DNA of 64,000 bases from a bacterium (GTDB lineage: Bacteria; Armatimonadota; Fimbriimonadia; Fimbriimonadales; Fimbriimonadaceae). Below the pieces are notes generated by a model that worked only from the letters and a program-made list of their open reading frames with translations, was not told the origin of the DNA and ran no database searches. The stretch's first letter is position 1, and the number at the start of each line of letters is the position of its first letter. The stretch spans positions 227,432 through 291,431 of the forward strand of contig JAIXUN010000001.1 of the NCBI GenBank assembly GCA_027483535.1, read 5' to 3'. The translations under genes and the position numbers were made by a program. Shown piece after piece: positions 20,722 to 29,955 of the stretch.

Positions 20722-22110
20722 TTAGGCGATTTTAGGGAAACCACGCTCGGCGAAGATGGCCTGCGCGTGGGCCACTTGAACGTCCATCGCTTTCGGTCCC
20801 GGACCACCGAAAGACTCGCGTCTGGCTACCGATTGCTCGGGTTGCAACACGCTGATGGCTTCCGCAGGAATCTCTGGATCGATCTCGGCCAGCACGGAGG
20901 CGGTGAGTTCCTCCAGAGTGATTCCTCTTTCTTCGCAGCCACGAACCACTTTCCCAACCATTTCATGCGCGACCCGGAAAGGAACACCGCTTGCGGCGAG
21001 GTAGTCGGCGAGGTCGGTGGCGGTTGAAAAGTCTCCGCGAACGGAGGTCGCCATGCGTTCCACTTGCCAATCGGCGGTGCGGAGCATCATGTCCACCAGT
21101 TGCAGAGAGTCCTTCACCTTGCCCAACGAGTCGAACAGCGGCGGCTTGTCTTCTTGAGTGTCTCGGTTGTAGCCGAGCGGGAGTCCCTTCATCACCGTTG
21201 CAAGCGTCACCCAGTTGGCGATCGCGCGACCGGTTCGCCCCCGAATGAGTTCCGCCATGTCGGGATTTCGCTTTTGCGGCATGATCGAGCTACCCGTCGT
21301 GGTGGAATCGGCAAGTTTGACGAAGCCGAACTCTCGACCACTCCAAAGCACCAGTTCTTGGCTGATGCGGCTGAGGTCGATCATGATCATGGCGCTCACG
21401 TGGAGCGCGTCCAAGATATAGGACCGATCGCTAGTGGCATCAAGCGCGTTCGGGATCGGAGCGGTGAATCCGAGTTCATCGGAAGTGGCTTGGCGGTTGA
21501 TCGGGAATCCAGTGCCTGCGAGAGCGGCTGCACCCAAAGGCGAGTAGTTGGCAGATTCAAAGAGTCGCTCCGCTCGCCATCCATGACGTTGAAGCGCCCA
21601 GAAGTGAGCCATGTAGTGAAAACCGAGGGTGATCGGCTGGGCTCGCTGTTGGTGCGTGTAGCCGGGCATGATGGTGCCCTTGTGGGTTTGACCGATCTCG
21701 AGCAGAGTCTTCTGCAAGTCCTTGATGAGGTCCAGTACGAGCAGAAGTTCGTTGTGCAGGTAGAGCCGAGCAGCAGTCGCGACTTGGTCGTTTCGGCTGC
21801 GCGCGGTGTGAAGCTTTCCGGCGACATCTCCGCAAAGTTCGCGAAGCTTGATTTCAATAGCGGTGTGAATGTCCTCAACGTCCATGTTGAGAGCTTCTGG
21901 ACCACCTTCGTGGATCTTTTCTAGTCCATCGATAAGTTGCTGGGCCTCATCTTTGGTGATGATTCCGACCTCGCCAAGCATACGCGCGTGGGCGACGGAC
22001 CCAATGATGTCCTCTTGCCAGAAGTTAAGGTCTGTCCGAATGGACTGACCGAATCGATCAACGAGTTCATCCGTAGACTCGCCAAAAGCGCCACCCCAAA
22101 GTTTCTTCAT
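20722..22110 (-). CDS. argH: Argininosuccinate lyase
   Basis: This 462-residue fumarase-superfamily enzyme splits argininosuccinate to arginine and fumarate, the last step of arginine synthesis. The N-terminal LWGGAFGESTDE and the signature GSSIMPQKRNPDMAEL are both present, and the length is normal. The ATG at 22110 has no evident Shine-Dalgarno. It leads the argH-acpS-polA group. The other arginine gene in the window is the argD-argF fusion, about 2.8 kb further on and separated by two PEP-CTERM genes. Confidence 0.97.
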   Translation of the reverse strand: MKKLWGGAFGESTDELVDRFGQSIRTDLNFWQEDIIGSVAHARMLGEVGIITKDEAQQLIDGLEKIHEGGPEALNMDVEDIHTAIEIKLRELCGDVAGKLHTARSRNDQVATAARLYLHNELLLVLDLIKDLQKTLLEIGQTHKGTIMPGYTHQQRAQPITLGFHYMAHFWALQRHGWRAERLFESANYSPLGAAALAGTGFPINRQATSDELGFTAPIPNALDATSDRSYILDALHVSAMIMIDLSRISQELVLWSGREFGFVKLADSTTTGSSIMPQKRNPDMAELIRGRTGRAIANWVTLATVMKGLPLGYNRDTQEDKPPLFDSLGKVKDSLQLVDMMLRTADWQVERMATSVRGDFSTATDLADYLAASGVPFRVAHEMVGKVVRGCEERGITLEELTASVLAEIDPEIPAEAISVLQPEQSVARRESFGGPGPKAMDVQVAHAQAIFAERGFPKIA

Positions 22111-22191: not shown

Positions 22192-23682
22192 TCAGCGAGA
22201 CTGTCTGCGGCGACGAGCAAGGGCGAGAAGACCTGCGCCGAGCATCGCAAACGTCGCGGGTTCAGGAACAACCGATCCGGCGAGCTGGACGGTTCGGAAC
22301 TGTCCCGTGAAATCGTCGGTGATCGTCAACAAGCCCGTCTTCTGACCCATCGACGAGGTGTTGATTCGGATCATCGAGTTGATCGAACCGCCGCCATCGA
22401 TGTCGAAAGTGCCCGTCGGAACGGTGAAGTCCCCGGTCACCGAGAAGCGAACTCGGGTTCGTTGAATCCCACCCACGCCCCAGAGGCTCGAATCAACCGA
22501 GTTCGAGACAAGCAGGCTTTGGAAGTTTCCGACGACATCGTTCAGCGCAACCTCACCGAAGTTCAGGGCAGATGCACCCGCGGTGAGGTCGGCGGGAACC
22601 TTGAGGTCGAGAAAAACGGGCAGGTGACCACCCGTATTGCTTGGGTTCGTGTTTCCGACCGAATCGATGAGCGCCTGGGCGATGGTGGCTCCCACCATCG
22701 TGTTGCCGTTCACTTTGAGAGTCGTGTTGAACGAAGTGCCATCGTTGCCCCAAACGCGGTAGGAGTGGTTCGAATCGTTCCAGGTGGTGCCGCTATACGC
22801 ATCCGTGGTCGAGCCAATGTATTCGAGACCCTTGCCGTCGCGGAGCGATCCGCCGACCAACATGAAGTCAAGACGGTCGTCCATTCCGCCCGCTCCGTAC
22901 GGGTCCTGAGTGTGCAAGAACCGATAGGTGTTGCTGTTGTTCCAGTTGATGTTGCCACCGTTGGAGGTGTAGGACGAGTTGATCGGGTCGAAGAATCGGC
23001 CACCCGTCAAAGCGCCGCCGGGACGAGAAACGGAGGCGTCAAGGAGTTGCTTGTACCCGTCGTCTCCGCTGCCTTGGACGTTGAAGTCGCCACCGATCAT
23101 GATGTGCGTCCCCGCGGGCCGGTTGGCGGCATCGGTTCGAATATTGGTGGCCTCAACCAGTCGTCGCGCCTCGTCATCGGTGGTGCTACCCGCCTTCCAG
23201 TGGGACGAATAGAAAGAAACGTTCGGATTGGTGGTGCTGCCCGCCTGATAGCCCTTGAGGCGAAAATCGTATCGCTGGGTATCTCGCGGATCGCCCGTGA
23301 TGTTCACGCGGGAAACGTAGTCGATCTTGTTCTTTCGGTAGACCATTCCCGAATCGGTGTCGCCCGTATCTAAAAAGGGTGCGGCCGCCCACTGGTTTTC
23401 TTGTCCGGGAGTGGTATTGAGAATGTTTAGGAAGTTGGTGAGTCCGGTCGAACCTCTCAGTTCCTGAAGAACGAGGATGTCCGGGTTGAACGATCGCCCT
23501 TCGAACTGGTTGAAAATGGCGGTTCGGAAAGCGTTGGTCCGCCCCGATTCATAGTTCGTCACGTTCCAAGTAGCCGCTCTTAGCTGAGCCTCTGCCGTCA
23601 GTCCTGCCGAAACCAGGAACCCGGAGAGCAGAACCCTGGAAAGCAAGTCGCCACGCAAAGCGCGTGCATTCAAGAAAACCAT
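22192..23682 (-). CDS. Secreted endonuclease/exonuclease/phosphatase-family protein with PEP-CTERM tail
   Basis: I choose ATG 23682 (496 residues) because the signal peptide (RALRGDLLSRVLLSGFLVSAGL) follows directly. A longer frame extends to 23796 without a signal-like start. The domain (about residues 35-340) has the nuclease motifs ATWNVTNYE, VLQELRG, GGDFNVQG and GGHLPVFL, typical of the EEP/DNase I superfamily with metal-bound Glu and His. After an Ig-like region the last 22 residues are VPEPATFAMLG, a short Leu/Ala helix and RRRRQSR, a PEP-CTERM-like sorting signal. I infer an exported phosphodiesterase or nuclease anchored by an exosortase. A terminator for the next gene lies at its 5' side. 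Confidence 0.83.
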   Translation of the reverse strand: MVFLNARALRGDLLSRVLLSGFLVSAGLTAEAQLRAATWNVTNYESGRTNAFRTAIFNQFEGRSFNPDILVLQELRGSTGLTNFLNILNTTPGQENQWAAAPFLDTGDTDSGMVYRKNKIDYVSRVNITGDPRDTQRYDFRLKGYQAGSTTNPNVSFYSSHWKAGSTTDDEARRLVEATNIRTDAANRPAGTHIMIGGDFNVQGSGDDGYKQLLDASVSRPGGALTGGRFFDPINSSYTSNGGNINWNNSNTYRFLHTQDPYGAGGMDDRLDFMLVGGSLRDGKGLEYIGSTTDAYSGTTWNDSNHSYRVWGNDGTSFNTTLKVNGNTMVGATIAQALIDSVGNTNPSNTGGHLPVFLDLKVPADLTAGASALNFGEVALNDVVGNFQSLLVSNSVDSSLWGVGGIQRTRVRFSVTGDFTVPTGTFDIDGGGSINSMIRINTSSMGQKTGLLTITDDFTGQFRTVQLAGSVVPEPATFAMLGAGLLALARRRRQSR

Positions 23683-23756
23683 TGGCGGTAAGAATACCGG
23701 GCGAGCGCTGGCTTCTTGGCTGGAATAAACCCAGCAAACGTAACAGGTTGAACGCA

Positions 23757-23787
23757 AAAGCCTCTCTTGGTTAATAAGAGAGGCTTT
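23757..23787 (-). terminator. Intrinsic terminator after the PEP-CTERM gene
   Basis: A perfect 12-bp stem (AAAGCCTCTCTT at 23757-23768, AAGAGAGGCTTT at 23776-23787) with a 7-nt loop is followed on the minus strand by TTTTGCG. It lies just downstream of the stop at 23805 and upstream of the nuclease gene start. Confidence 0.75.
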
Positions 23788-23804
23788 GTAGGGCAATTGA
23801 AGGA

Positions 23805-24713
23805 TTACTTGCGTCGCTTTCGGATGAGTCCGCCGAGACCGACGGCGAACATCGCGAGGGTTGCGGGCTCAGGAACAACCTTAACGTCGTCGATGGCGAA
23901 GCCGTGGTCCGAACCAGAGGAATCGACGTCATTCCACCGAAGCAACAAGTCTGAACCGGCAGCCCATTCGCTGTGAATTTGACCGACTCGAACTGATCGG
24001 AACGTGTTTCCGTCCAGGGCCACTTCACCACCCGGTCCAAGATTTGAAACGTTGTGAGAAGCCGGCATTACACCGAGATCATTCTCGTATGTTCCCGCGG
24101 TGTTCTCATCAACCGGGTTACCTCCACTCACTCGGATCTTCAGGTTATCGCGAGTCCAAATGCCTGTTCCCACATTGGCAAGCCCATCGGAGGCCGTAAG
24201 GGCATAGGAGGAAGATTGGAAACTGTAGTCAAAGCTTTGGATGTCAACACTTGTTGAGCCCGAGCGCCACTGCTCGACAAACCACTTGAATTCAATGACG
24301 CCAGGTCCCGAAATCGACGAGACGGCTCCGTTGTTACGAAGCCGCAAAATCCGACTTCCCTTCGCCATGGAGCCAGCACCGATGGAACCCAAGGCACGAT
24401 CGGTACTACCGGTGGCCCCGAAGCTGTAGAACCCACTCGTTCCAACACTGCCGGCGCCCGTGTAGAGGTTGCGTCCGGCGGTCGTTCCTGAAGTGGCCGA
24501 GGTGACAAGGTACCACCCCGACATCGATGAGCCAACCGTCGAACCAAGGTCCATGATTTGGCTGCCGGAGGTAAAGGTCGTCGACCCTGTTGTCGGAAGA
24601 GTGTCGAAGTTCTGCTCGTATCGGTTCAGCGAACCGTTCCAGAGGTTAGCAACCGATTGCCCGAACGAAAGCGGCGCAACCGCACATAAAAGTAATACCG
24701 AAACCTTCTTCAT
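23805..24713 (-). CDS. PEP-CTERM secreted protein of unknown function
   Basis: I choose ATG 24713 (302 residues): GGTGGGAA sits just before it and a signal peptide (MKKVSVLLLCAVAPLSFG) follows. The middle is Gly/Ser/Thr-rich and beta-predicted, without an enzyme motif. It ends with VPEPATLAMFAVGLGGLI, a hydrophobic segment, then RKRRK, the PEP-CTERM pattern. A surface or envelope protein is inferred. The 5' UTR carries three ATGCA repeats (24725-24742) and a TATACT-like -10 on the minus strand near 24758. Exosortase is not in this window. Confidence 0.82.
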   Translation of the reverse strand: MKKVSVLLLCAVAPLSFGQSVANLWNGSLNRYEQNFDTLPTTGSTTFTSGSQIMDLGSTVGSSMSGWYLVTSATSGTTAGRNLYTGAGSVGTSGFYSFGATGSTDRALGSIGAGSMAKGSRILRLRNNGAVSSISGPGVIEFKWFVEQWRSGSTSVDIQSFDYSFQSSSYALTASDGLANVGTGIWTRDNLKIRVSGGNPVDENTAGTYENDLGVMPASHNVSNLGPGGEVALDGNTFRSVRVGQIHSEWAAGSDLLLRWNDVDSSGSDHGFAIDDVKVVPEPATLAMFAVGLGGLIRKRRK

Positions 24714-24875
24714 TTCCCACCAAAATGCAAATGCAAAATGCATTCAACGGTGGGAGTATAAATATTGGCTCGTGCCGAACTTTAGGTTCAAAATTCAAAG
24801 CAAGTATTGTTGCTGAGGTGAACCGGCAAACTTGCAAGGAGCGTCTTAAAGCTCACTTAACAAAGCCTTAGCCGA

Positions 24876-24897
24876 CACCTAGTAGGAACACTAGGTG
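24876..24897. repeat. Inverted repeat after the argD-argF fusion gene
   Basis: CACCTAGT (24876-24883) and ACTAGGTG (24890-24897) form a perfect 8-bp arm pair with a 6-nt spacer, 16 bp past the stop of argDF. There is no U-tract, so it may be a weak terminator, an RNA-stabilising hairpin or an operator. Confidence 0.45.
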
Positions 24898-24913
24898 CCA
24901 GCTAAACTTGGGT

Positions 24914-27028
24914 TTACAAACCGAGAATTCGCTGCAAGAGCGCTTTCTGGGCGTGCAGACGGTTTTCAGCTTGATCGTTGACCACGCTTCCAACCCCGTC
25001 GATCACATCGTCGGTCACTTCCAAACCTCGTCGTGCCGGGAGGCAGTGCATGAACACGGCATCCTTATCCGCCATCGCCATCATTCGTCGATTCACCTGG
25101 AACGACTCAAACACTCGCATGCGGTGCTCTTGTTCGTGCTCGTCACCCATTGAGACCCACACATCTGTGTAAACGACCTTTGCGTCGGCGAGTCCTTCCT
25201 CGACATCGGCAGTCTGGGTAAGACCGTCCATCGGCTCCAAGCGGAAGTTCTCTGGACCCACAATGCTCACCGGGTACCCGAGCCGGGTCGCCAGCTTAGC
25301 GAGCGATCGCGCTACGTTGTTGGCATCACCGACGTAGGCGATCTTCACCTTGTCCGATCCGAACCGCTCGCGAACGGTCATCACGTCGGCAAGCGCCTGA
25401 CAAGGGTGTTCCCATTCCGTAAGCGCGTTGACAACGGGCACATCGCAGAACTCGGCGAGTTCCTTCAGGTGCTTGTGCCAGTAAAGCCGAGCGACAACCA
25501 TCGACGACCATCGACTGAGGTTCATCGCCACGTCTTTGACCGCCTCTCGCGAGCCCATGCCTACATCGCTCTTGCCGAGATACACCGGATGTCCGCCTAG
25601 CTCTCGAATAGCGACCTCAAAGGAGAAGCGGGTTCTCAACGACTGCTTTTCAAACAGCATGGCCACCGAGCGGTTCTCGACCGGGGTGATTGCGCTCGGG
25701 GCGAGTTTTCGCCGTTGTTTGCTGTACGCGGCAAGATCAAGAAGGTCTTCCAGTTGTTGATCGGTGAGGTCGTCGATGGAGAGGACGTCTCGGTATTCAA
25801 CGCTCGGCCGGGCGGCAACCACTCGATCAACGGGTTTCGCGGCGTCGACCCCTAGAACGGACGCGATGATCGCGATCGCCTCATCGACTTGTTCGACGGT
25901 TAGAATGAGCGGCGGAACAAACCGAAGCGTCGTTTCATCGGTGGCGTTGATGATCAGCCGCTTTTCCAAACACTGCCGAACAATGTCGCGCGCTTTCGGC
26001 TCGGTCAGGGCGAGCCCAAGCATGAGACCGTAGCCTTTGACCTTTTCAACGATCGGGCCCAGACCTTGAAGGCGCTCCCGGAAGTAGGCCCCAACTTTGT
26101 CCACGTGCGCCAGCAAGTCTTGGTGCTCGATGGTCTCGATAACGGCCAATGCCGCCGAGCAGGAGAGGGGATTTCCGCCAAAGGTCGCCCCGTGATCTCC
26201 TGGCTCCAGGATTCCGGTTGCTTTACCCGCGACGAGGCAGGCTCCAATAGGCACGCCACCACCCAGGCCCTTGGCAAGGCACAGAACATCGGGGCGAATT
26301 CCGTGGTGCTGGAAGGCAAACCACTTTCCGGTTCGACCCATTCCCGACTGGACCTCGTCCAGCATCAGGAGCGCGTTGTGTTCGCGGCATAGGCTCTCCG
26401 CCTCTTTCAAAAACTCAGTCGTGAGTTCTTGAACGCCACCTTCGCCCATGATCGGCTCGAAGAGAACGGCAGCCGTCTTGTGAGAGAACGCTTCTCGGAG
26501 GGCTTGGATGTCGTTAGCGGGGATGTGAACGAAGCCCGGGATGAGCGGCTCGAACGGTCGTTGGTACTTACGTTGTCCCGTGGCCGAGATCGAACCCAGA
26601 GTTCGGCCATGGAACGAACGTTGAAGTGTGATGATTTGATAATCGCCATCCGGTCTTTTTATCGCCCCATGCTTCTTGGCGATTTTGAGCGCCGTTTCAT
26701 TGGCGGTCGCTCCGCAGATGGCATAAAAGACTTTCTCCATTCCGGAGATCCGGCAGAGCTTTTCTGCCAGTTGGGCTTGGGGAGCGGTGAGCAACAAGTT
26801 GGAGACGTGAATGAGCTGTTGCGCTTGCCGCGTGATGGCAGCCACCACGGCCGGGTGGCAGTGCCCGAGGTTGCAAACGGCGATACCGGCTAAGAGGTCG
26901 AGGTACTCGTTGCCTCGGTTGTCCCACAGCGAACAGCCTGCGCCTTGAACGAACAAAGCGGGCATTCGGGTGTAAGTTGGTATCACGAAATCGTCGTCTA
27001 GCGATTTGATCTGATCATATTTGAGCAT
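24914..27028 (-). CDS. ArgD-ArgF fusion: acetylornithine aminotransferase + ornithine carbamoyltransferase
   Basis: One 704-residue frame carries two arginine-pathway enzymes. Residues 1-395 are a class III PLP aminotransferase like ArgD, with LDEVQSGMGRTGKW at 223-236 and the PLP lysine K253 in LAKGLGGG. Residues about 411-704 are a carbamoyltransferase like ArgF, with SLRTR at 463-467 (carbamoyl phosphate), HPCQ at 541-544, SMGDE near 627 and HCLP at 661-664. The linker is only about 15 residues. ArgD makes N-acetylornithine, a deacetylase or ArgJ makes ornithine, and ArgF makes citrulline. Both halves look intact, so this is probably functional. A possible leader ORF lies upstream. Separate argD and argF are the normal arrangement. 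Confidence 0.93.
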   Translation of the reverse strand: MLKYDQIKSLDDDFVIPTYTRMPALFVQGAGCSLWDNRGNEYLDLLAGIAVCNLGHCHPAVVAAITRQAQQLIHVSNLLLTAPQAQLAEKLCRISGMEKVFYAICGATANETALKIAKKHGAIKRPDGDYQIITLQRSFHGRTLGSISATGQRKYQRPFEPLIPGFVHIPANDIQALREAFSHKTAAVLFEPIMGEGGVQELTTEFLKEAESLCREHNALLMLDEVQSGMGRTGKWFAFQHHGIRPDVLCLAKGLGGGVPIGACLVAGKATGILEPGDHGATFGGNPLSCSAALAVIETIEHQDLLAHVDKVGAYFRERLQGLGPIVEKVKGYGLMLGLALTEPKARDIVRQCLEKRLIINATDETTLRFVPPLILTVEQVDEAIAIIASVLGVDAAKPVDRVVAARPSVEYRDVLSIDDLTDQQLEDLLDLAAYSKQRRKLAPSAITPVENRSVAMLFEKQSLRTRFSFEVAIRELGGHPVYLGKSDVGMGSREAVKDVAMNLSRWSSMVVARLYWHKHLKELAEFCDVPVVNALTEWEHPCQALADVMTVRERFGSDKVKIAYVGDANNVARSLAKLATRLGYPVSIVGPENFRLEPMDGLTQTADVEEGLADAKVVYTDVWVSMGDEHEQEHRMRVFESFQVNRRMMAMADKDAVFMHCLPARRGLEVTDDVIDGVGSVVNDQAENRLHAQKALLQRILGL

Positions 27029-27711: not shown

Positions 27712-28653
27712 TTAGCCCTTGTAGTCGCCGTGAAGGATGACGCTCTGAGCGGATTCGCCCAGTTCCACTTCTCCGCCAAAGACGGAGTGTCGGATAGTGC
27801 CGTTCACTTTGACCTTCGCTCCGGGCAGAACCACCGAGTCCTCAATCGATTCGCACTCGACGGTCGCCCCGGCGCCGATCACCACTTTATCGCCGATAGA
27901 GCCCGTTACCGTGGCGGTTTCATCGACCATCGGTCCATTGTTCGAAAGGTAGGCACTGGTTTCTAGGAACGAATCGAGCGTGCCGGTATCGAACCAAGCC
28001 CCTTCGTAGAGACCCGCAAGAACCAGGTTTCCTCGGTCGATCAGCATCTGGATCGCGTCAGTGATCTCGAATTCGCCGCGGCCGCTTGGCTGAAGGTCTG
28101 GCAAAATCTCCCAGATCTGCGGTCCAAAGAAGTACAGACCCGCCATAGCGAGGTTGCTCTCGGGCTGTTTCGGCTTCTCGACCAGCTTGACAATCCGGTC
28201 GCCTTCCACGTTGGCGACGCCGAATCGCTCCGGATCAGGTACGGACTTCACCAAGTTGAGGTTTGCACAGCCAGACTCTTCGAATCGCTTCTTGAGTTCC
28301 ACAAAGCCGTCGCTGTAAATGGCGTCGCCAAGATACAAAACGAACGAATCACCTGCGACGAAATCCTTCGTGAAGGAGACCGCGTGAGCAAGTCCCTTCG
28401 GCTCCGGTTGGCGAACATAGGAAAGGGAGACTCCAAACGCTGAACCATCGCCAAGGGCAGATTTCATCGCGTTCTCGTTCTCTCCCACCACCACGCAAAT
28501 CTCGTGGACGCCCATCTCTTTCAGCTTTTCGAATGCGTAGGCGAGGGTCATCCGATTGGCCAACGGGAGAAGTGGCTTCGGGATGATATGCGTGACAGGG
28601 TACAGCCGGCTTCCCTTTCCGGCAGCGAGAATCACTCCTTTCATCTCGTTCAT
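27712..28653 (-). CDS. Sugar-nucleotide (glucose-1-phosphate) nucleotidyltransferase
   Basis: This 313-residue GT-A-type transferase begins MKGVILAAGKGSRLYPVT (second Met, residue 4 of the frame), the nucleotide-binding loop. DAIYSDGF, ERFGVANVEGDRIVKLVEKP and the GAWFDTGTLDSF motif near residue 220 are typical of RmlA/GlmU-like enzymes. A short left-handed beta-helix tail (VTGSIGDKVVIGAGATVE) closes it. It makes an NDP-sugar from a hexose-1-phosphate and NTP. dTTP/glucose is a guess. It stands alone, so the pathway (LPS, exopolysaccharide or glycoprotein) is not shown. Confidence 0.88.
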   Translation of the reverse strand: MNEMKGVILAAGKGSRLYPVTHIIPKPLLPLANRMTLAYAFEKLKEMGVHEICVVVGENENAMKSALGDGSAFGVSLSYVRQPEPKGLAHAVSFTKDFVAGDSFVLYLGDAIYSDGFVELKKRFEESGCANLNLVKSVPDPERFGVANVEGDRIVKLVEKPKQPESNLAMAGLYFFGPQIWEILPDLQPSGRGEFEITDAIQMLIDRGNLVLAGLYEGAWFDTGTLDSFLETSAYLSNNGPMVDETATVTGSIGDKVVIGAGATVECESIEDSVVLPGAKVKVNGTIRHSVFGGEVELGESAQSVILHGDYKG

Positions 28654-28728: not shown

Positions 28729-29955
28729 ATGGAGAGAAAGCGGTTTTTGGGTCGACACATCGCTCTGGGGGGCATATTCTTTGCCGCTTTCTTGGGCGGA
28801 TGTTCTTCTGCGAAGGAAGTGGTTTTCGATCCTATTCCAACGGCTCTTCCTCCCACTGAGCGGACCGACCGCGAAAAGCGCTCCTTTGAAGCCTACATGG
28901 AGGCGGGACAGCGCATTGAGGCGGAGTCCAAGCACATCAACCGGACGACCTTTTTCCCTCGACAGAAACAAGAATCAGAGGCGGTGGTTTTAAAGGTTTG
29001 GAATCAGGTGACGCAGGCTGCCACCTCTGAGTGCCGATTCGACTATAAGCCTCAGGGCTTCCAAACAACCGATTACCCACTCAAGGGATGGCGCATGATC
29101 GGTCGAGTGCTCGCTTGGCGAATCGAACGAGCCGTCAAAGCGGGAAGCTATGATGCCGCCATTGCCCAGTACCGAATCGGCCTGCGATTCGGGTTGCACC
29201 TTTCTGGAGGCGATGCTGAAACGCTCAGCTTAGGCCTTGGAATTTCGGACGACTGTCGGCGAGCCCTGCTTCCCGCGCTTCGAAAGCTTGGGTCGGGACA
29301 GCTCAACCGGCTGAATCAGGTTGTTTCCGCCGCGCTGAAGATCAAGCCGCCGCTAGAATCAACCGCCTTGCACGAGGCATACCGCTCCCGAATGGTTCTT
29401 TCGAGCGTTCAGCAGGCGTATCGGGAGTCAACCGTGCCATCGCTGATCTCAACCCTTGGAAAGGGCCTAGAAGACGATCTGACGCGAGTGAGCAAGCTGA
29501 AAGCCTCCGAGGCGGCGGCGTTCTTCAAGGATCGCTTAAAGGAAATCGACGCATACGAGCAGTCCCTTCGCGCCGACGCCAGGCTCGCGGTTCCAAAACG
29601 TGGGACCGACTTCGACTTGGGCTCTAGAAAGTTTCGAACCCTACGCCGGGCCCTGCTGAGCGGCGGTCGGGCGATGCTCGGGATCCACGATGCCAGCATC
29701 GCCAGAACGAGATTGCTCGCGGTTTACGCGTCTTTGCTGGCACAGGCGAAGAGCAAAGGGAGCGTGCCGAAGAACCTCAAGAAGTTCCCGCAGCTAGAGA
29801 TTCAAGATCCTTACAGCGGATACCCCTTCGTTTATCGCAGCGACGGGCGCGAGTTCTTGGTGTACTCAGTTGGCATCGATGGCAAGGACGACCTTGGGGA
29901 GACGGACAGTTCTTTCCTTTCTCCAGACCTTTGCCTGGAGATCCCCCCGAAATAA
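28729..29955 (+). CDS. Lipoprotein of unknown function with a GspG-like C-terminal motif
   Basis: This 408-residue protein has an N-terminal signal with lipobox FLGGC (Cys25). The body is helical and rich in Arg, Ala and Leu. The last 45 residues read DPYSGYPFVYRSDGREF and LVYSVGIDGKDDLGE, resembling the calcium-binding tail of type II secretion pseudopilins (GspG), which is found alone in many Planctomycetes and Armatimonadota proteins. No signal suggests it is a pilin itself. It converges with the efflux operon, 13 bp away. Function is unknown. Confidence 0.78.
   Translation: MERKRFLGRHIALGGIFFAAFLGGCSSAKEVVFDPIPTALPPTERTDREKRSFEAYMEAGQRIEAESKHINRTTFFPRQKQESEAVVLKVWNQVTQAATSECRFDYKPQGFQTTDYPLKGWRMIGRVLAWRIERAVKAGSYDAAIAQYRIGLRFGLHLSGGDAETLSLGLGISDDCRRALLPALRKLGSGQLNRLNQVVSAALKIKPPLESTALHEAYRSRMVLSSVQQAYRESTVPSLISTLGKGLEDDLTRVSKLKASEAAAFFKDRLKEIDAYEQSLRADARLAVPKRGTDFDLGSRKFRTLRRALLSGGRAMLGIHDASIARTRLLAVYASLLAQAKSKGSVPKNLKKFPQLEIQDPYSGYPFVYRSDGREFLVYSVGIDGKDDLGETDSSFLSPDLCLEIPPK

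Follow-up and report, generated by a model that had tools for sequence, protein, structure and literature searches.

A conserved and recurrent fusion of two ordinary arginine-biosynthesis enzymes, ArgD and ArgF, in a family of Armatimonadota

N-acetylornithine aminotransferase (ArgD) and the anabolic ornithine carbamoyltransferase (OTC, ArgF) are known as stand-alone enzymes, represented by the curated models TIGR00707 and TIGR00658 and by solved structures of each (2ord, 2eh6 and 1vef for ArgD; 1a1s, 1pvv and 2ef0 for OTC). In clusters of the argCJBDF type the two genes form tandem pairs, in the same order and the same phase in many genomes, separated by a stop codon. Fusions of other arginine-pathway enzymes have been reported, namely argH(A) of Moritella and Idiomarina and the NAGS-kinase of Xanthomonas (PMC1382215, PMC1865377). 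These likewise combine two arginine-biosynthesis steps in a single chain, and ArgH is also joined with ArgA across non-consecutive steps, but the enzymes involved differ from those considered here; PMC1382215 does not mention argD and describes no ArgD-ArgF pair. The preliminary description of the present locus knew of no described ArgD-ArgF fusion, and we found none in the open-access library that was searched.

The window, a stretch of 64,000 nucleotides from a bacterium of the Fimbriimonadaceae, contains a fused argD-argF gene (argDF) at positions 24914–27028 on the minus strand. It is a single open frame that begins with ATG, has no internal stop and encodes 704 amino acids. Pfam matches on this chain are Aminotran_3 at residues 19–392 (6e-114), OTCace_N at 413–554 (7.5e-43) and OTCace at 560–699 (4e-47). 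Together with the NCBIfam models discussed below, they bear out the earlier statement that one 704-residue frame holds a complete ArgD and a complete carbamoyltransferase, and the motifs cited at that time were located at K253, DEVQ 224–227, SLRTR 463–467, HPCQ 541–544 and HCLP 661–664. In contrast to the tandem pairs, no stop codon separates the two genes. Our search of solved structures returned no chain that spans both halves.

The two halves are joined by a linker covering residues ~394–412 (25793–25849, minus strand), or ~20 residues (393–412) when counted between the Pfam domains; the joint is indeed short, as first described, though longer than the 15 or so residues then given. It is the least conserved stretch of the chain, variable in sequence among the 30 intact copies described below (mean top-residue frequency 0.52–0.53). 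In an AlphaFold model, residues 398–414 have pLDDT values below 50, and the linker is thus predicted to be disordered. This model (mean pLDDT 75, pTM 0.52), built from a shallow alignment, was used for the linker alone and not for domain packing. A consensus scan places a strong terminator-like hairpin of 18 pairs with a T-containing tail directly past the argDF stop codon (24867–24906, minus strand), which suggests a single transcript end past both halves, although it is no evidence of function.

The ArgD half, a class-III PLP aminotransferase, extends over residues ~14–393 (25850–26989, minus strand). It scores 465.6 bits against TIGR00707 argD (cut-off 410.05) and 480.5 bits against PRK03244 (cut-off 457), and the closest solved chain is the acetylornithine aminotransferase 2ord, which matches residues 14–392 with an E-value of 6e-115. 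The half has the whole catalytic domain of the stand-alone enzymes, including the active-site lysine and the DEVQ motif, besides F139-HGR-R142; it differs from them in that the chain runs on into an OTC domain. Lysine 253 and D224, corresponding to the PLP lysine and the Asp of the class-III fold, are invariant in all 30 intact copies, as are E225 and Q227. The half is therefore predicted to be an N-acetylornithine aminotransferase, and the presence of ArgJ and ArgC in the genome agrees with N-acetylornithine as the substrate.

The OTC half covers residues ~411–704 (24917–25798, minus strand) and carries the SxRTR, HPxQ, DxxxSMG and HCLP motifs of stand-alone OTCs as SLRTR, HPCQ, DVWVSMG and HCLP. 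Scores of 324.7–329.1 bits against TIGR00658 (cut-off 280.85) and 357–361 bits against PRK00779 (cut-off 306) place it among OTCs, and the closest solved chains, 1a1s and 1pvv (the latter covering residues 410–703), are ornithine carbamoyltransferases. SLRTR, D-V-W-x-S-M-G and HCLP are invariant in the 30 intact copies; the third position of HPCQ is C in 27 of them and F or L in three, while the rest of that motif is invariant. Compared with stand-alone OTCs, the N-terminus is attached to ArgD, and relative to 1a1s the half is ~13 residues shorter after the GPENF segment. An N-acetylornithine carbamoyltransferase at this position would have made the two steps consecutive. This was ruled out by a PRK04523 score of 160.3 bits against a cut-off of 288; the putrescine carbamoyltransferase model TIGR04384 likewise gives a score below its cut-off (265.1 against 500 bits). 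Since the half scores as an OTC and far under the N-acetylornithine carbamoyltransferase cut-off, the two active sites of ArgDF do not catalyse consecutive steps.

The genome of the window (3.77 Mb in 4 contigs, 99% complete) holds one full-length argDF match, which is its only OTC, the other carbamoyltransferase being PyrB, and also the only protein that scores as ArgD. The best scores of the next nearest aminotransferases mark them as putrescine-aminotransferase-like and lysine-6-transaminase-like; the first of these reaches 378.7 bits against TIGR00707, under the cut-off of 410, and might have some ArgD activity too. ArgB, ArgC, ArgJ and ArgG are encoded elsewhere in the genome. The argJ gene is separate and adjoins argC on another contig (C1:941036-942241). 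The gene for argininosuccinate lyase, argH, lies inside the window downstream of argDF (20722–22110, minus strand; TIGR00838 526 bits, cut-off 279.5), as it does at two further argDF loci (L005 and L062).

Two PEP-CTERM genes are located between argDF and argH in the window (22192–24743). PEP-CTERM genes also come immediately after argDF, or after its OTC-only relative, at L062 7418, L048 6144, L042 3620 and L043 639, and in several genomes they split these genes from argG and argH. On the upstream side, a nucleotidyltransferase gene (27712–28653, minus strand; Pfam NTP_transferase) serves as a syntenic marker: it is likewise found upstream of argDF in L005 and L062, and L048 and L049 have it ahead of a gene for OTC only and for ArgD only, respectively. 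A lipoprotein-like gene (28729–29955) is divergent from it, and like genes occupy the same place in L005, L048, L049 and L062, so that the two appear to form a conserved pair.

A complete argD-argF fusion is present in 31 of the 291 Armatimonadota genomes searched, all of them in the window's family f1 (Fimbriimonadaceae-like), a family of bacteria from soil and water, where it spans 8 genera; the proteins are 58–73% identical to that of the window. The preliminary description had named a frameshift or assembly error at the joint as what would overturn the fusion. The same in-frame joint recurs in 30 other genomes (with a nonsense codon in the OTC half of one), and this recurrence excludes such an artefact; with three single-contig chromosomes among the 30 (G015 of 5,231,762 bases, G069 and G070), we give an error at the joint a negligible probability. 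It had also been considered that the fused chain might be common and already described; it is common within family f1, and apparently undescribed. Outside the phylum, a sample of 301 Chloroflexota genomes gave no match at 1e-145 in a search run without a positive control. A plasmid search gave one unannotated record with most of the query in two pieces and one record annotated as two separate genes, the remaining matches being ArgD-like only.

The intact copies, the window's included, number 30 and are each 700–705 amino acids long. Across them 177 of the 704 residues are invariant, the catalytic motifs included. In each half, dN/dS lies at 0.02–0.09 for nearly all close pairs; a single noisier value, 0.22, comes with a dS of only 0.06. 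Both halves are under purifying selection. The 31st fusion genome (G022) has a TAG at codon 517 of argDF (L015 1501–3615), inside the OTC half, and neither ArgJ nor a good ArgC match. This looks like a decaying arginine pathway, though the assembly is 89% complete in 440 contigs and the absences could partly reflect this.

Within family f1, 30 of the 31 genomes with the fusion have ArgJ, compared with 2 of the 54 remaining genomes (Fisher p 2e-19, with genomes treated as unrelated). Most of the non-fusion f1 genomes, G016, G019, G020 and G032 among them, have neither ArgJ nor a close ArgD or OTC match. Members of the family seem repeatedly to have lost the ability to make arginine.

Three observations make a single bifunctional enzyme the most likely product: little or no variation in the catalytic motifs, purifying selection on each half, and the absence of a conserved internal start. 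A candidate internal start yielding a separate OTC was rejected, as no start codon position near the joint is common to the 30 intact copies. The possibility that two separate proteins result, by an internal start or by proteolysis of the linker, so that the fused frame would be a coupled gene pair, draws on the linker being the least conserved and disordered part of the chain and on the start codons scattered near it in some species. Against it, some intact copies lack any start codon before the OTC core, and in the window the only GTG near the joint lacks a Shine-Dalgarno-like motif in the scan used; we consider it very unlikely. Linker cleavage in vivo, or internal translation in single species, may nevertheless occur.

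Tandem argD-argF pairs that are in phase and have one stop between them were seen at six Armatimonadota loci inspected and in Pseudomonadota, Bacillota and Actinomycetota samples (phylum names of samples follow the titles of the anchor records). As such pairs are common, stop loss is a simple one-mutation route to fusion, and argDF most likely arose when neighbouring argD and argF genes lost the stop codon that kept them apart. The trees place the two halves differently. For the ArgD half, the sister group is the ArgD of f3, another family of the order (100/98). For the OTC half it is not the f3 OTC but the stand-alone OTCs from family f2 and from some f1 genomes (100/99). In family f2 the OTC gene heads an argF-argG-argH run, and the gene order in G069 is argDF, a PEP-CTERM gene, argG and argH. 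These differing sisters and gene orders suggest that an argF-argG-argH run probably gained an argD at its front end, the fusion following later.

The fusion is not restricted to this family. A second occurrence is in genus g56 of family f10, another genus of Armatimonadota (G123 and G126; 721 amino acids), and a third in a single genome among the Bacillota sampled (G1007, L092); there it closes an argC-argJ-argB-argDF cluster whose genes were named from sequence by eye and not by profile scan. Both are placed apart from the f1 fusion in the trees. When the f1 and g56 fusions were constrained to one clade, as a single common origin requires, the OTC half rejected the constraint (AU p 0.005), and the ArgD half did so only marginally (p 0.049). 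Besides that in family f1, at least two fusions thus look independent.

Single-half genes are also found. Downstream of the same nucleotidyltransferase gene, OTC is present alone in G036 and ArgD alone in G056, showing that each half can exist alone at this syntenic spot; G064 and G065 have ArgD alone as well, in G064 at a different place. The trees nest all of these inside the fused clade, while a clade of fused genes only is not rejected (p 0.066 for ArgD, 0.215 for OTC). The nesting suggests that the single-half genes at the argDF locus (G036 and G056) derive from a fused ancestor by loss of one half, but the single-half genes may instead represent states that precede the fusion.

OTC has another fusion partner in other Armatimonadota. 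Clp_N-OTC chains of 472–637 amino acids in the same frame are encoded near argD in G135, G133 and G242 (L064 1935–3845, minus; L079 1700–3574, minus; L086 5410–6825, plus). That of L064 contains a T2SSE-like segment, which in L079 is under the Pfam cut-off. It is odd to find a chaperone/protease adaptor domain paired with an enzyme of biosynthesis.

In the proposed scheme, the N-terminal half of ArgDF would convert N-acetylglutamate semialdehyde to N-acetylornithine, which would leave the protein. The separate ArgJ would then move the acetyl group to glutamate and free ornithine, which the C-terminal half would carbamoylate to citrulline, to be followed by ArgG and ArgH. The fusion would be kept for fixed expression and stoichiometry of the steps flanking ArgJ, the simplest advantage that we infer for it. 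Taken as a whole, a bifunctional ArgD/ArgF enzyme working around a separate ArgJ, arisen by stop loss and kept for stoichiometry and expression, is in our judgement highly probable. The earlier suggestion that the fusion could bring ornithine supply close to the carbamoyltransferase is unsupported, since the intermediate must pass ArgJ, an intervening enzyme that is a separate protein encoded on another contig; chemistry excludes direct transfer from ArgD to OTC unless ArgJ docks.

The advantage itself is open to a serious rival, namely that the ancestor of the family lost the stop on a single occasion and the chain has simply persisted, functionally neutral, with both enzymes folding and working as before and nothing gained in channelling, scaffolding or regulation. 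This contests the benefit of the fusion and not its bifunctionality, so the considerable likelihood that we give it, somewhat short of even, overlaps with that of the explanation by stoichiometry. The frequency of tandem in-phase pairs one mutation away from fusion, a variable and disordered linker, the position of the middle enzyme ArgJ outside the chain and the relatives that seem to have dropped one half all fit neutral fixation. On the other hand, every intact copy has stayed in frame across 58–73% identity with its length held at 700–705 residues, and there are at least three apparently separate occurrences, which count against neutrality.

A more elaborate possibility is that ArgJ docks between the ArgD and OTC sites, so that N-acetylornithine and ornithine are kept from the cell pool. 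The fusion does join exactly the steps on both sides of ArgJ and co-occurs with it in 30 of 31 genomes; such co-occurrence would, however, accompany any ArgJ-dependent route to arginine, and with argJ lying beside argC on another contig and the linker variable and disordered, we find channelling through such a complex improbable. Typical ArgD enzymes are dimeric, and OTCs usually form trimers. For this reason a higher assembly is predicted, for example of six chains arranged as three ArgD dimers and two OTC trimers, to which ArgJ could dock, although both the assembly state and the proximity of ArgJ are speculative. A closed particle that holds ArgJ as a three-step ornithine-citrulline scaffold, with three ArgD dimers linking two OTC trimers or of larger size, and that evolved several times via stop-codon loss, is similarly unlikely.

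The preferred reading remains the bifunctional enzyme kept for stoichiometry and expression. ArgDF is a real, conserved and recurrent fusion of two ordinary enzymes, with an architecture that is new as far as checked and no sign yet of new chemistry. As it joins enzymes of differing usual oligomeric state that catalyse non-consecutive steps, it offers a clean natural test of whether such a fusion serves channelling, stoichiometry or nothing, and the existence of fused, tandem and single-half relatives makes a direct comparison possible. For the Armatimonadota themselves, naming argDF genes after a single function would make the second enzyme seem to be missing when their pathways are reconstructed.
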